Below, one piece after another: positions 8,725 through 27,617 of a stretch of 30,957 nucleotides of DNA. The notes under the pieces were generated by a model, which was given only the letters and a program-made list of their open reading frames with translations, ran no database searches and was not told the DNA's origin. The stretch spans positions 1-30,957 of IMG/VR virus record IMGVR_UViG_3300002835_000738, one strand, 5' to 3'. Position 1 is the stretch's first letter, and the number at the start of each line of letters is the position of its first letter. This stretch comes from a virus. Made by a program: the position numbers and the translations under genes.

Positions 8725-9213
8725 ATGGCTGAATTATTAGACCCAACCGAAATAATGTTTACCGCTTTTGAACCAAAAGTGGCTAACCGTTTTATCATGT
8801 ACATTGAAGGTATCCCTGCTTATTTAATTAAAGCGACTAATCGTCCAGGTATTACTTTCGGTGATGTGGTATTAGATCATATCAACGTAGAAAGAAAATT
8901 AAAAGGAAAAGGACGTTGGAATGATGTATCAATTACTTTATACGATCCAGTAGTTCCTTCAGCTTCTCAAGCAGTAATGGAATGGGTTCGTTTATCTCAT
9001 GAGTCTGTAACAGGTCGTGATGGTTATTCTGACTTTTACAAGAAAGACATTACTTTCAATGCTTTAGGACCAGTAGGTGATAAAGTTGAAGAATGGACGC
9101 TAAAAGGTGCTTATATTGGAGACGCTAACTTTGGTGACTTTGATTGGGCTACTGAAGATGCTGTAAATATTCAATTAACATTGAAATACGATTACGCAAT
9201 TTTGCAATTCTAA
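8725..9213 (+). CDS. gp19: Tail tube protein (gp19-like)
   Basis: 162 residues, matching the T4 gp19 length (163). Family features are visible: FEPKVANRFIMYIEGIPAYLIKA near the start, then a LDHINVERKLKGKGRWNDVSITLYDP strand region, and near the C-terminus an IQLTLKYDYAIL strand. Hexamers of this protein stack into the inner tube through which DNA passes. The gene follows the sheath, with its own upstream late-type box and a strong terminator after it, so it can be expressed at its own high level. Confidence 0.96.
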   Translation: MAELLDPTEIMFTAFEPKVANRFIMYIEGIPAYLIKATNRPGITFGDVVLDHINVERKLKGKGRWNDVSITLYDPVVPSASQAVMEWVRLSHESVTGRDGYSDFYKKDITFNALGPVGDKVEEWTLKGAYIGDANFGDFDWATEDAVNIQLTLKYDYAILQF

Positions 9214-10015: not shown

Positions 10016-10885
10016 ATGCCAACAGTTAACGATAACTATCCTAAAAAGGATAATGCAGAAATGTCGGATGCGCAGTTAAAAGAACTTGCCATTCAACAAA
10101 TGCAACGCCAAGAGGTTAAAAACTCTGGATTCCCAACAGAAATGATTTCATTACCGTCTCAAGGTAAAGTATATCCTGAGACAAGTCCTTTATCTTCAGG
10201 TAAGATAGAAATGAAATACATGACAGCTCGAGAAGAAGATATTCTTACTTCACAAAATTTAATTCGTCAAGGAATTGTATTAGAAAAGCTAATGCAATCA
10301 ATGATTGTATCTCCTATTAATTACAATGATTTAGTTATTGGAGATAAAAATGCTATTATGGTCGCTGCTCGTATTTTAGGATACGGTAAAGACTATTCTG
10401 CTTCTGTAGATTGTCCAAAATGTGAAGCTAGTAATCCTATTGAAATAGATTTAACTCAGTTACCTGAAAAGTCTATTCCTGAAGATGCTAAAATGATATC
10501 TCCAGGCGTATTTGAATTTACGTTACCTCAATCAAAACGAGTAATTCATTTTAAATTAATTAATACAGGTCTAGATAAGCAAATTACTAGAGATTTAGAA
10601 GCAACTAAAAAAGCTAATAAATCATCCACTGCAATTGACAGAGAATTGACTACTAGATTGAAAAATATCATAGTGTCAGTTGACGGCGAGACAGATAAAA
10701 AATTCATAAGCAATTTTGTTGATAATGAATTATTTGCAATGGATTCTAGATCATTTAGAACATATATGAAAGAAGTAGCACCTGACACGACATTTGCCGT
10801 TAATTTTGTATGCAGCGAATGCGACCACGAAGAGGAGGCGTTAGGGTTTTCAATTGATACTAACTTTTTTTGGCCTAAGTTCTAA
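10016..10885 (+). CDS. Baseplate hub assembly/tail assembly chaperone-like protein with zinc-ribbon cysteines
   Basis: 289 residues. The N-terminal part contains GFPTEMISLPSQGKVYP and KYMTAREEDILTSQNLIRQG, which I recognise from the T4 gp26/gp51-type hub assembly family found before the tape measure in many T4-like phages. Two cysteine pairs, CPKC (133-136) and CSEC (266-269), would form a four-Cys zinc ribbon. Position, two genes upstream of the tape measure, fits a tail assembly chaperone. The 3' end carries a seven-T run (10865-10871) where ribosomes could shift into the next open frame. Family naming is moderately sure; zinc binding is inferred from the cysteines. Confidence 0.75.
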   Translation: MPTVNDNYPKKDNAEMSDAQLKELAIQQMQRQEVKNSGFPTEMISLPSQGKVYPETSPLSSGKIEMKYMTAREEDILTSQNLIRQGIVLEKLMQSMIVSPINYNDLVIGDKNAIMVAARILGYGKDYSASVDCPKCEASNPIEIDLTQLPEKSIPEDAKMISPGVFEFTLPQSKRVIHFKLINTGLDKQITRDLEATKKANKSSTAIDRELTTRLKNIIVSVDGETDKKFISNFVDNELFAMDSRSFRTYMKEVAPDTTFAVNFVCSECDHEEEALGFSIDTNFFWPKF

Positions 10886-11099
10886 ACACAAACCTTTAAT
10901 TCATAGTCAGTTATTTGATATGGTTTATCATGGCCATGGATTTACCTGGTCTGAATTATATAATATGCCAGTTTGGCTTCGTAAATTTTATTATAAAAAG
11001 ATGGAAGAAGCAATGAGTAAACAAAAAGAAGCTCATACAAAAGCATCTAAAAAAACATCTAAACCTAAAATATCAAGACCATCAGTAGGACCTAAATAA
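10854..11099 (+). CDS. Frameshift extension of the tail assembly chaperone
   Basis: This frame is open from inside the preceding gene to 11099. The protein segment GLSSKHKPLIHSQLFDMVYH followed by GHGFTWSELYNMPVWLRKFYYKKM resembles short conserved proteins (xxYNMPxWLRxFY) encoded between the hub-assembly gene and the tape measure in T4-like phages, ending in a Lys/Ser-rich tail. The only starts are TTG at 10854 and an internal ATG at 10920. The conserved-looking HKPLIHSQLFD lies before that ATG, so translation by frameshift from the upstream gene is more likely than independent initiation. In-frame use probably begins near 10872. The gene's stop lies inside a terminator hairpin. Confidence 0.68.
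   Translation: MILTFFGLSSKHKPLIHSQLFDMVYHGHGFTWSELYNMPVWLRKFYYKKMEEAMSKQKEAHTKASKKTSKPKISRPSVGPK
10865..10871 (+). promoter_or_regulatory. Candidate ribosomal frameshift site (T7 run)
   Basis: In the upstream gene's frame the codons are AAC TTT TTT TGG, five codons before the stop at 10883. A +1 (or -2) slip on TTT TTT T moves into the frame that runs to 11099, giving ...NFF-GLSSKHKPL. The other shift (-1) would stop after two codons (TTG GCC TAA). A homopolymer slip site in a tail chaperone gene just before a tape measure gene parallels lambda G/GT-type frameshifting. Confidence 0.5.
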
Positions 11100-11600: not shown

Positions 11601-14153
11601 ATGGCTAAAGATTCTGATAAATTAATTGCGGACCAAGCAAAACAAATTAAAGCCTTAAAAGAAGCTGCTCGTAAAAAAGAAGCTAAAGCGAGTACTGAAA
11701 TGAAAGATCAAGTAGATTGGTCTCAACAGTTACTGGATATAGAATCTGAAAGAATTAAAGGATGGTCAAAGTTACGAGAGTCTCAAGAGTTGTCGGCAAT
11801 GGCAATGGAAGACCTCCGAGATACTACGAAACAAATGTCTGCCATAGACAGAAAAAATTTAATTACTAATACTAAACAAGAAAAAGCACTTCAAAAAAAT
11901 CTTAAAGCTCAAATTAAAATTTATGATTTAGAAAAAGAAGCTTTACCTCATAGAAAAAAATTATTAGAGTCTCAAGAAAAATTAAATAAACTACATGATA
12001 AATATAAAGAGTCAGTAGAAGAAAGTTTAGACTTTTTTGACGATTTTAATAGCAAAATAAAAAGTATTCCTATTGTAGGAGATTTTTTATCAAAGGCAAT
12101 TGGATTAGATAAAATAAAAGAAGAACTTACTGATAAATTTACAGGGTATTTAACAAACGCATTAGACCCTGCATCAGCTGCGCAGGCAGCGGCATCCGCA
12201 GAAGCAGTTGCCGGCTATGAAGCACAAATTGCAGCTCAAGGAGTATTAGCAGCTGAAACTGGAGTAGTAGCTGTAGAATCCGGAGTAATTGCAACAGAAA
12301 TAGGAGTTGCAGCAGCTGAGACAGTAGCTTTAACTGCAGGAACAGCAGCAGCATCTGTAGGAGCAATGGGATTTGCATCTGCAATGGGCGCAGCGGCAGT
12401 AGCGGCATGGGCAGCAATGTCACCAATGCTTCCTTTAATTGCTTTAGCTGCGGCATTGTTAGCAACAATAATGCTTATTAAAAAAGGATTAGATGTAGAT
12501 GAAGAAATATCACATCTAGCTAAAGGAATGGGCCAAACTAAGCACGAAGCTGAAGAAGCACATCATCAATTTGCAGAAATTGCAGCTGATACTGAAATAG
12601 TAGGAGCTAATATAGAATCAATAACTCAAGCCAATAAAGATTTAAATGCTATTTTAGGAACTAACGTTACAGCGTCTAAAGAAATGTTAGAAGCTCAAGT
12701 TCTTCTAACAAAACAATATGGATTGACAGGCGAAGAAGCAGCAGAGTTTCAAGCCGTATCAGCCGGCACTGGTAAAACAGTTAATCAAAATTTAGCGACA
12801 GTTCAAGCAATGGTCGAAGGTTATAATACCATGACCGGCGATTCTTTGAATTTTAAAGAGATATCAAAAGACATTGCTAAAACTTCTAAAGCTACTTTAG
12901 CTTCTTATAAAGGAAACGTTAAAGCTCTTACGCTAGCTGCTATTCAAGCTAAGAAAATGGGTATGTCTTTAGAAGATACTCAACATGTAGCTGATAATTT
13001 GCTAGATATTGAATCTTCAGTTGAGGCTGAAATGAAAGCCAATGTATTGACAGGTAAGCATATGAATATGAATAAAGCTCGTCAATTAGCATTAGAAGGC
13101 AAAACAGCAGAAGCTGCAGCAGAGGCTGTTTCTCAAGCAGGTTCGCTTTCTGAATTAAACGACATGAACATTATTCAACGTAAATCAATTGCAGATGCAG
13201 CGGGAGTTACTGTTGATCAGTTAATGAAATCGGCTGAATTACAAGAATATAGCAATGCATTAAATGGCGCAGAGATAACAGATATGAAAGATCTAACTGC
13301 TGAACAAATCCATCAGTTAGAAATAGCAGGGGCAATTGATAAGACAAAGGCAGATCAATTAATGAAAGAACAACAAATTGCTTCTACAAATGAAAAAATG
13401 GCTCATATAGGAGATAGGTTATCAGCAATTATGATGAAGATTGCTGATCCAATCGTAGATATGTTAGATCCATTAATGGAAATGGTAGATTTTGTATTTC
13501 CTTTACTTGGAGTAGCAATGGCTCCAATGATGTTCGGATTTAAAGTTGTAGGCATAACTGTAGGAGGTATAATAAAAGCAGTTAGTTATTTAATCGGAGT
13601 TATCGGCCGATTAGGTATAATGATTAATGAAGCTTTAGGAGATCCGTTAAAAGGAATAGTAGATTTTTTCAAAGATATCGGAAATTCTATATCAAACTTC
13701 TTTGGAGGAATATTTGATTATTTTTCAGAAAGAATAACTAATATGTTACCAGATTGGGCATTGAAGTTATTAGATATAGGACCTTCAAATAAAGAATCAG
13801 AAGCTTCGCATCAGAAAGTTGATGATGCTATGATAGCTCCAGATGGAGGATTAGTAGTATCAGGTCAAAAAGGATCGTTTCAATTAAATTCTCAAGATTC
13901 TGTAGTAGCTGGAACTAGTTTAGGAGAGCAAAAAGACGACGGACCAAGTGACTTTAGCAATTGGTGGGATTCAATGACAGGCGGAAATGACAATGCAGAA
14001 ATAGTTTCTTTATTAAGAGAATTAATCGCAAAAGTTGAACAACCAGTAATGGTTAATATTGGCGGCCGAGTAGTCGACGAAATGGAAAAACAAACTTCTT
14101 TAAGAAGAACGTATAATACCAAAATGGACAGCGGTTATGGCACGTTTGGATAA
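11601..14153 (+). CDS. Tail tape measure protein (gp29-like)
   Basis: 850 residues. Residues 1-150 are charged coiled coil. Residues about 188-270 are extremely Ala-rich and lead into a hydrophobic segment (PMLPLIALAAALLATIMLI, about 275-293). Long helical stretches follow to about 600, then a second hydrophobic region (FPLLGVAMAPMMFGFKVVGI and beyond). Near the end, IAPDGGLVVSGQKGSFQLN is a pattern I know from tape measure proteins of T4-like phages. Length, helicity and membrane-like segments fit a protein that sets tail length and is injected first. Position between the assembly chaperone and baseplate genes supports this. Repetitive Ala codons explain open antisense frames here. Confidence 0.88.
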   Translation: MAKDSDKLIADQAKQIKALKEAARKKEAKASTEMKDQVDWSQQLLDIESERIKGWSKLRESQELSAMAMEDLRDTTKQMSAIDRKNLITNTKQEKALQKNLKAQIKIYDLEKEALPHRKKLLESQEKLNKLHDKYKESVEESLDFFDDFNSKIKSIPIVGDFLSKAIGLDKIKEELTDKFTGYLTNALDPASAAQAAASAEAVAGYEAQIAAQGVLAAETGVVAVESGVIATEIGVAAAETVALTAGTAAASVGAMGFASAMGAAAVAAWAAMSPMLPLIALAAALLATIMLIKKGLDVDEEISHLAKGMGQTKHEAEEAHHQFAEIAADTEIVGANIESITQANKDLNAILGTNVTASKEMLEAQVLLTKQYGLTGEEAAEFQAVSAGTGKTVNQNLATVQAMVEGYNTMTGDSLNFKEISKDIAKTSKATLASYKGNVKALTLAAIQAKKMGMSLEDTQHVADNLLDIESSVEAEMKANVLTGKHMNMNKARQLALEGKTAEAAAEAVSQAGSLSELNDMNIIQRKSIADAAGVTVDQLMKSAELQEYSNALNGAEITDMKDLTAEQIHQLEIAGAIDKTKADQLMKEQQIASTNEKMAHIGDRLSAIMMKIADPIVDMLDPLMEMVDFVFPLLGVAMAPMMFGFKVVGITVGGIIKAVSYLIGVIGRLGIMINEALGDPLKGIVDFFKDIGNSISNFFGGIFDYFSERITNMLPDWALKLLDIGPSNKESEASHQKVDDAMIAPDGGLVVSGQKGSFQLNSQDSVVAGTSLGEQKDDGPSDFSNWWDSMTGGNDNAEIVSLLRELIAKVEQPVMVNIGGRVVDEMEKQTSLRRTYNTKMDSGYGTFG

Positions 14154-25760: not shown

Positions 25761-27617
25761 ATGGAATTATCAAACGAAATTTTATCGGACATTACCGTCC
25801 ATATGAAGTATGCACGCTTTCGCCCAGAGCTGCAGCGTCGAGAAACTTGGGAAGAGCTAGTTACCCGTAACAAGGAAATGCACATCAAGAAGTATCCGCA
25901 TTTAGAGGCAGAGATTGAAGAGACGTATAAATTCGTTTATGATAAAAAAATATTACCTTCAATGCGCAGTTTGCAATTTGGTGGTAAGCCTATTGAAATT
26001 TCTCCAAACAGAATTTACAATTGTGCTTATTTACCTATTGACGATTGGAGAGCATTTGGAGAAGTAATGTTTTTATTACTAGGTGGCACAGGAGTAGGGT
26101 ATTCAGTACAAAAACATCACGTAGATGCATTACCTGAAATTAGAAAACCAGATGCAAAAAGGAATAGAAGATTTTTAATAGGAGACTCTATTGAAGGTTG
26201 GGCAGATGCAATTAAGATGTTAATGAAATCTTATTTTCATGGAGGAGCATCTATTAACTTTGACTTTTCAGACATTCGTCAAAAAGGAGCAATGTTAGTA
26301 ACTTCAGGTGGTAAAGCACCCGGACCTCAACCATTAAAAGAGTGTTTAGTAAAAATTCAAGGTATCTTAGATACTAAAATAGATAATGAAAAATTATCAC
26401 CAATTGAAGTGCATGATATTGTGTGTCATATTGCAGACGCAGTATTAGCAGGTGGTATTCGTCGTGCAGCATTGATTTCTTTATTCAGCGCAGACGATAA
26501 TGAAATGATATCTTGCAAATCAGGACCATGGTGGGAGTTAAACCCGCAAAGAGGTAGAGCAAATAACTCAGCAGTTCTTTTAAGAAACAAAGTAACTCAA
26601 GAGTTCTTTATGTCTTTATGGGAAAAGATCAAAGCTTCAGGAGCAGGAGAGCCAGGTATTTATTTATCAAACGATAAAGATTGGGGAACTAATCCATGTT
26701 GTGAAATTGCACTTCGTCCATTCCAATTTTGTAATTTATGTGAGGTAAATGTTTCAGACATTGAGTCTCAAGAAGATTTAGATGCTCGTGTTAAAGCAGC
26801 AGCATTTGTAGGAACACTTCAAGCAGGTTATACCAATTTCCATTATTTACGTCCTGTATGGCAACGCACTACAGAGAAAGACGCTTTAATTGGTGTAGGT
26901 ATGACAGGTATTGGTTCAGGTGTTGCTCAAAAGTATGACTTAAAACGTGCAGCTGAATTAGTTAAAGAAGTAAATACAGCTACTGCAAAACAAATTGGAA
27001 TCAATGCATCAGCAAGATGCTCAACCATCAAACCTTCAGGAACATCATCATTGGTATTAGGAACTTCATCGGGCATTCACGCTAGACACAATGACTATTA
27101 TATTCGTCGTGTGCGTGTAGGTAAGAATGAAGCTATTTATACTTATTTAATGATTAATCATCCAGAGTTAATTGAAGATGATTATTTCCGTCCACACGAT
27201 ACGGCAGTAATTTCAGTACCTCAAAAATCTCCAGCAGAGTCTATTTTAAGAACAGAGTCTGCATTGGATTTATTAGAGAGAGTAAAATGGTTTTACACTA
27301 ACTGGGTTAAACCAGGACATCGCAATGGACAAAATACTCATAACATTTCAGCTACAGTATCTATTAAAGAAGATGAATGGGAAGTAGTTGGTAATTGGAT
27401 GTGGGAGAACAGAAAGTTCTATAACGGATTATCAGTTCTACCTTACGACGGTGGTACATATATTCAAGCTCCTTTCGAAGATTGCACTAAAGAAAAATAT
27501 GAAGAAATGATGAAACATCTATCTAATATTAATTTAGCTCATGTAGTTGAAATAGCTGACAATACTAATTTGCAAGATCAAGCTGCTTGTGCAGGTGGTG
27601 CTTGTGAAATTCAATAA
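25761..27617 (+). CDS. nrdJ: Class II adenosylcobalamin-dependent ribonucleotide reductase
   Basis: 618 residues. Hallmarks of the monomeric B12-dependent (RTPR-like) class are visible: ILPSMRSLQFGG, NRIYNCAYLP (C88), LAGGIRRAA, the NPCCEI loop (thiyl Cys C313, E315), C324 eleven residues later as in the C408/C419 pair of Lactobacillus RTPR, STIKPSGTSSLVLGTSSGIH, and C-terminal shuttle cysteines C610-x4-C615 (CAGGACEIQ). The usual motif is NPCGEI; here an extra Cys replaces the Gly. It is shorter than RTPR (about 740 residues). The enzyme makes deoxynucleotides for phage replication and needs cobalamin from the host, unlike T4 NrdAB. A dUTPase gene follows nearby. Confidence 0.92.
   Translation: MELSNEILSDITVHMKYARFRPELQRRETWEELVTRNKEMHIKKYPHLEAEIEETYKFVYDKKILPSMRSLQFGGKPIEISPNRIYNCAYLPIDDWRAFGEVMFLLLGGTGVGYSVQKHHVDALPEIRKPDAKRNRRFLIGDSIEGWADAIKMLMKSYFHGGASINFDFSDIRQKGAMLVTSGGKAPGPQPLKECLVKIQGILDTKIDNEKLSPIEVHDIVCHIADAVLAGGIRRAALISLFSADDNEMISCKSGPWWELNPQRGRANNSAVLLRNKVTQEFFMSLWEKIKASGAGEPGIYLSNDKDWGTNPCCEIALRPFQFCNLCEVNVSDIESQEDLDARVKAAAFVGTLQAGYTNFHYLRPVWQRTTEKDALIGVGMTGIGSGVAQKYDLKRAAELVKEVNTATAKQIGINASARCSTIKPSGTSSLVLGTSSGIHARHNDYYIRRVRVGKNEAIYTYLMINHPELIEDDYFRPHDTAVISVPQKSPAESILRTESALDLLERVKWFYTNWVKPGHRNGQNTHNISATVSIKEDEWEVVGNWMWENRKFYNGLSVLPYDGGTYIQAPFEDCTKEKYEEMMKHLSNINLAHVVEIADNTNLQDQAACAGGACEIQ

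Follow-up and report, generated by a model that had tools for sequence, protein, structure and literature searches.

The 30,957-base stretch analyzed here (the window), a metagenomic viral contig whose host is unknown, carries a gene, beginning at position 10016, that stops just beyond a run of seven T residues while another reading frame continues past its end. Does this locus encode one protein, or does it produce two from a single start? Our results favor the second answer. A programmed +1 ribosomal frameshift at AAC UUU UUU UGG is the likely means by which two proteins arise from one tail-chaperone gene, with the slippage being inferred and no product having been measured.

In the frame of the 10016 gene, the junction (10862-10885) reads AAC TTT TTT TGG CCT AAG TTC TAA and is preceded by GAT ACT. 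Its T run is the only one of seven or more on the plus strand of the window. Past the run, the +1 frame stays open from GGC (10872) up to a stop at 11097-11099, and the conserved residues in this domain are IFDLVYHG..FTW..VYNMPVWLRKFY. There is no ATG or GTG in the window's +1 frame ahead of the conserved part, leaving a TTG at 10854 as the only formal start. The junction reads C TTT TTT and so does not meet the criterion for a canonical -1 heptamer (X XXY YYZ); taken by itself, the site permits +1 and -2 shifts alike. A sequence-only reading had claimed a T run near the end of the gene with a +1 or -2 continuation, a -1 frame that closes at once, and no good start before the conserved part, all of which held, the -1 frame closing after about 5 codons. 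Two of its counts held only in part: it gave 76 codons for the continuation, where 75 follow the run, and it had the gene ending five codons after the run, where four sense codons (W P K F) come before the stop.

The product of the 10016 gene belongs to PF12322, the gp26/gp51 family, by the profile cut-off (Pfam E=2e-12; 47.7 bits versus a cut-off of 24.5) and by the order of elements and fold of models, the fold being a prediction. It also matched phrog_150 (PHROG 150, baseplate hub) with E=3e-14. An AlphaFold model of the short form (pLDDT 84.6) found viral baseplate-hub models in BFVD, including the SP-15 hub and Aeromonas phage 25 gp26. The order of elements in this model is similar to that in a model of T4-type gp51 (AlphaFold, pLDDT 82.9), where the C-terminal extension is helical. 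The gene's neighbors are a tail tube gene upstream, identified by profile match, and a putative tape measure gene downstream, inferred from synteny alone: the 850-aa gene had no Pfam or PHROG match, and an annotated tape measure gene sits at its place in relatives L082 and L250. The sequence-only reading had called the product a tail assembly chaperone, which fits both the place after the tail tube gene and a published list where T4 gp26 and gp51 appear among the hub assembly chaperones (PMC3004832).

Table 1. Features of the proposed frameshift locus and its neighbors, in window coordinates
Feature	Coordinates	Strand	Evidence
Tail tube protein gene	8725..9213	+	phrog_4542 E=1.5e-22; Pfam gp19 E=2.7e-6, slightly below its cut-off
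Zero-frame gene, 289 aa, short form	10016..10885	+	PF12322 T4_baseplate; phrog_150 baseplate hub
Purine-rich Shine-Dalgarno-like element AGAGGAGG, about 26 nt 5' of the T run	10831..10838	+	Selected in relatives
T7 run, putative slippery site, TTT TTT T then GG	10865..10871	+	Kept in relatives
Continuation in the +1 frame, 75 codons and a stop, encoding the C-terminal part of the predicted long form	10872..11099	+	Relatives, conservation, substitution pattern
Zero-frame stop TAA, closing the short form ...NFFWPKF	10883..10885	+	Sequence reading
850-aa gene in tape-measure position	11601..14153	+	Putative, by gene order in annotated relatives

Three scans of viral contigs, together with cultured phages, yielded 195 nonredundant junctions in which both parts of the gene were found. 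These counts rest on an 80% identity filter with no further correction for phylogeny. Of the 195 relatives, 189 carry the second domain in the +1 frame and the other 6 carry it in the -1 frame, at classical heptamers. Among those in the +1 frame, 181 of 189 keep TTT TTT followed by T, distributed over TTT TTT TGG CCT (162), TTT TTT TAC CCT (10), TTT TTT TGG CCA (7), and TTT TTT TTC CCT (2). The remaining sites of the +1 group are GCT TTT TGG, CTT TTT TGG, TTT CTT TGG, TTT CTA TTC, TTT TTT CAC, and TTT TTT AGT, of which the last two belong to phages SP-15 and LIS04. The layout is not confined to metagenomic contigs, as it recurs in the cultured phages Mel-JY01, Flavobacterium immuto, SP-15, LIS04, and RM378; the last, a Rhodothermus phage, has TTT TTT TGG with the +1 frame open.

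The second frame is real coding sequence under purifying selection. In 48 independent pairs of relatives, substitutions past the first stop fell on second-frame codon positions 1, 2, and 3 in the numbers 282, 146, and 708. Codon changes in that frame were synonymous in 558 cases and nonsynonymous in 349, compared with 95/827 and 78/846 in the other two frames. Furthermore, this conserved frame lacks an independent start in many genomes. In 83 of the 189 +1-group relatives, the interval from the upstream stop to the conserved part contains no ATG, GTG, or TTG, and in 33 of the 189 the in-frame upstream stop is merely three codons 5' of GL. The locus satisfies one criterion of a G/GT-type arrangement, an overlapping second open reading frame (ORF) that lacks its own start and begins at a conserved slippery site. 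The suggestion that the continuation looks like a conserved protein was borne out by the 189 relatives and the substitution pattern. The test named for it, conservation of the T run and frame relation in related phages, was passed without refutation, and the refuting condition, a free-standing second gene with its own start in relatives, was not borne out.

Conservation of the T7 run is far beyond chance, because 181 of the 189 +1-frame relatives keep it and because the second frame evolves as coding sequence. Some of the surrounding conservation has a simpler source: the GG and CCT that follow the run are mostly explained by double coding, with FFWP in frame 0 and FFGL in frame +1. Double coding does not explain two other features. 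The third positions of both Phe codons are T in 117 of 117 representatives, while TTT usage elsewhere is 78%. In addition, no representative (0/117) has a T directly 5' of the run, compared with 60.1 expected from codon usage. With a T there, the site would contain the -1 heptamer T TTT TTT.

The mechanism that we propose is as follows. Most ribosomes would continue to the UAA and release the 289-aa short form, which is gp26-like. In some, the P-site tRNA-Phe would move from UUU to the overlapping +1 UUU, with TTT at 10868-10870 as the proposed slip codon and TTT at 10869-10871 as the site of re-pairing. These ribosomes would then read on through GGC CUA to make a 360-aa long form, which is gp51-like and has a C-terminal domain predicted to be helical. 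The slippage itself, its efficiency and the ratio of products, and the exact slip codon are all inferred, as are the chaperone roles of the products. If the parallel with lambda gpG/gpGT holds, coating the tape measure would fall to the short form and recruiting tube subunits to the long one, with neither remaining in the virion.

The strongest alternative concerns direction. A -2 shift at the T7 run would give a fusion with one extra Phe. Several observations speak for it: T at positions -6 to -1 in most relatives, including the window, would let tRNA-Phe re-pair two bases back; the first Phe codon is always TTT, which a +1 slip confined to the second TTT does not need; and phage Mu employs -2 (PMC5009743). 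Against it, relatives with GCT TTT TGG (L067/L068), TTT CTT TGG (L082/L122), or TTT CTA TTC (L254) can re-pair at +1 but not at -2. In bacteria, a tendency to slip by +1 is established for UUU_Y and CUU_U, the latter being the most efficient RF2 variant tested (PMC5009743), and the tail genes of different phages use -1, -2, and +1 (PMC5009743). For these reasons a +1 shift is the likely direction at the window's site and a -2 shift is unlikely; the ambiguity that the sequence-only reading left between them thus leans toward +1, on the strength of the relatives with interrupted runs.

Two further alternatives are much harder to sustain. Transcriptional slippage at the T7 run could produce mixed mRNAs, each read without frameshifting. 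A homopolymer run is present and its length is selected, as this explanation would have it. Yet there are relatives with TTTCTTTGG or TTTCTATTC that lack any run, and the strict exclusion of T before the run fits control by codon register; a run of seven is also short for bacterial transcriptional slippage. We regard this explanation as very improbable. There is equally little to recommend the view that the second ORF is translated separately, either as a gene in its own right with a start of its own or through translational coupling to the first ORF. In its favor, public records annotate the second ORF separately, 63 of 64 cyanophage-type relatives (described below) have an ATG directly after the first stop, and the window has its TTG at 10854. 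The startless +1-group relatives and those with a stop three codons before GL argue against it, however, as do HTVC008M and Aeh1 of the cyanophage-type group, which are also startless, and it leaves both the T7 rule and the avoidance of a preceding T unexplained. Finally, indel errors are drawn to homopolymers, but sequencing or assembly error or a pseudogene is all but excluded. The comparative data refute it: run length and frame are the same across many metagenomes, in some 180 contigs, as well as in cultured phages, and the second frame is under purifying selection.

A domain in the +1 frame is not the only arrangement found at this protein position. In five contigs (L028, L037, L046, L086, and L087), A AAT TTC stands at the same FF and the -1 frame carries the domain; these contigs nest within the +1 group when a tree is built from the zero-frame protein, with their nearest neighbor unresolved. 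Similarly, the jumbo phages XacN1 (T TTT TTT) and PA5oct (T TTT TTC) have the domain in the -1 frame. The same is true of all 64 distinct cyanophage-type junctions, which come from cyanophages and a pelagiphage among others (P-SSM2, S-PM2, HTVC008M, Cr30, KVP40, and P-SSM2-like contigs), where T TTT TTC or T TTT TTT falls at FF. The -1 heptamer criterion is met by the L028 group, XacN1, PA5oct, the cyanophage-type phages, and Aeh1. In the cyanophage-type phages, a GGAGGG-type element ends 7-9 nt 5' of the heptamer in 61 of 61 junctions tested, a layout that is dnaX-like. An ATG directly follows the first stop in most of these junctions but is absent in HTVC008M, and translational coupling remains possible in the relatives that have it. 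In the public records of P-SSM2, S-PM2, Cr30, and KVP40 (L263, L264, L267, and L268), the -1 domain is annotated as a separate short gp51. It is likely that each of these is the tail of a gp26-gp51 fusion.

Published work offers a check on the frameshift reading. Sullivan et al. 2010 reported that gp51 was missing from Aeh1 only, and that cyanophage and marine vibriophage gp51 was short of its ~200 N-terminal residues (PMC3037559). A frameshift origin of the long form predicts that Aeh1 holds the domain out of frame past gene 26. This expectation held: the Aeh1 sequence past gene 26 reads GAT TTT TTC GAC TGA, with RFFRLTLVNDSVYDLFNVNYEMHKEGWTIEELETTTPFERAIYRTL in the -1 frame. The gp51-type domain lies in an unannotated gap (NC_005260, about 118835-119000; locus L368), and no ATG, GTG, or TTG precedes its conserved part.

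The same domain connects the locus to phage T4. T4 gp26 and gp51 each match PF12322 and are therefore paralogues, with gp51 ~50 residues longer at its C-terminus. Profile comparison aligned the fused +1 proteins with the fused cyanophage-type proteins across the FF junction (E=4e-13), and the latter with T4-type gp51 as far as the C-terminus (E=1e-18). Second domains alone matched between the +1 and -1 (cyanophage-type) groups with E=1e-8, and the -1 domain matched the gp51 C-terminus with E=3e-12, compared with 0.03 or worse for control segments of gp51 and gp26. Direct comparison of the +1 domain with the gp51 C-terminus gave only 0.0025, no better than a control segment (0.0028), so that the -1 group has to serve as the intermediate. 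Homology to T4 gp51 is thus shown stepwise, and T4 gp26 (short) and gp51 (long) probably represent split copies of one frameshifted gene. A bolder reading, which we lean toward without much confidence, is that the gp26/gp51 frameshift is ancestral in T4-like phages, that changes of direction between +1 and -1 have occurred at least twice, and that a duplication in the T4 lineage left gene 26 with the short form and gene 51 with the long form fixed. T4 gp51 is required but is not part of the particle, and its function is unknown (PMC3004832); by analogy, being essential yet absent from the particle would fit a GT-type role. Searches of the PDB with fused, gp51, and second-domain profiles returned no solved relative, and a Foldseek search with the gp51 model returned no significant PDB match. 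We also observed that in Enterobacter phage EC-F2 (L248; 1501-2794) a gp51-like and a gp26-like gene stand in tandem on the same strand, as opposed to the divergent pair of T4, and it is possible that this lies nearer the state of duplication.

The locus shares features with several known systems without matching any one of them. Like lambda gpG/gpGT (Xu, Hendrix and Duda 2004; PMC5009743), it has a gene 3' of the tail tube that, judging by synteny alone, may also lie 5' of the tape measure, with proposed short and extended products from a shift near the gene's 3' end; the direction of the shift varies among phages. Unlike lambda, the window's clade belongs to PF12322 and would shift by +1 at a near-invariant TTTTTTTGG. 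Pfam and PHROG showed no similarity to lambda G or T, so membership in that family is not met; the lambda-like comparison drawn in the sequence-only reading stands as an analogy of layout, the sequence family being that of T4 gp26/gp51. T4 shares PF12322 with the window, and its gp51 amounts to a gp26-like protein plus the residues that match the frameshift domain through cyanophage-type relatives. It differs in that T4-type phages have two genes in place of one frameshifted gene, the short and long forms being encoded separately and, in T4, divergently. The cyanophages and KVP40, with their "gp26" and short "gp51" (PMC3037559), share the two-part layout and the FF position; they differ in the -1 heptamer, the upstream GGAGGG-type element, and annotation as two genes. 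With the RF2 (prfB) +1 site, CUU UGA, there is a common putative slip codon, CTT T, in L082 and L122, and a common pattern of UUU or CUU followed by U. In contrast to RF2, the A site here is a non-stop codon (UGG or UAC) and the Shine-Dalgarno (SD)-like element is about 26 nt away rather than 3.

Frameshifted tail chaperones are already a known kind, but the shift in the gp26/gp51 family, its motif, and the gp26/gp51 link appear to be undescribed. The open-access literature that we searched held no description of a frameshift in gp26/gp51, or of gp26 and gp51 as its split form; subscription papers, including Xu et al. 2004, were outside the scope of the search. A ribosomal slip at a fixed spot in one gene appears to give very many T4-related phages two versions of a tail helper. 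This reading would explain why T4 has two genes (26 and 51) where its relatives have one, and it accounts for two published oddities, the "truncated" gp51 of cyanophages and the "missing" gp51 of Aeh1. It would also mean that many public phage genomes are wrongly annotated at the gp26/gp51-family gene. From the comparison, gp26 and gp51 gain a concrete and testable role. In addition, these phages constitute a large natural experiment in which +1 and -1 slippage can be compared at a single position in the protein, and the rule is clear: +1 phages have no T before the run, whereas -1 phages with a U run have a T there.

The purine-rich element upstream of the run is under strong selection in the +1 group, and its role is unexplained. 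At the AGAGGAGG codon, the GAG:GAA ratio is 43:6 in +1-group relatives, compared with 427:1989 across the rest of the genes, and the best anti-SD energy averages -8.2 at this place versus -3.5 in control windows. As an SD-type frameshift stimulator the element was rejected, its spacing matching neither RF2 nor dnaX. Downstream RNA structure was weakly enriched (mean z of -1.0 in 60 relatives, against simple shuffles).

Two other observations concern the rest of the window. Its 25761-27617 region encodes a ribonucleotide reductase with a match to the B12-dependent (class II) insertion domain. Separately, four small proteins (window 9301, 9628, 11180, and 30173) have in common an N-terminal motif of the type MKxxEFRxLIREE, which recalls the capsid-targeting sequence of T4 internal proteins, and three of the four adjoin the frameshift gene.
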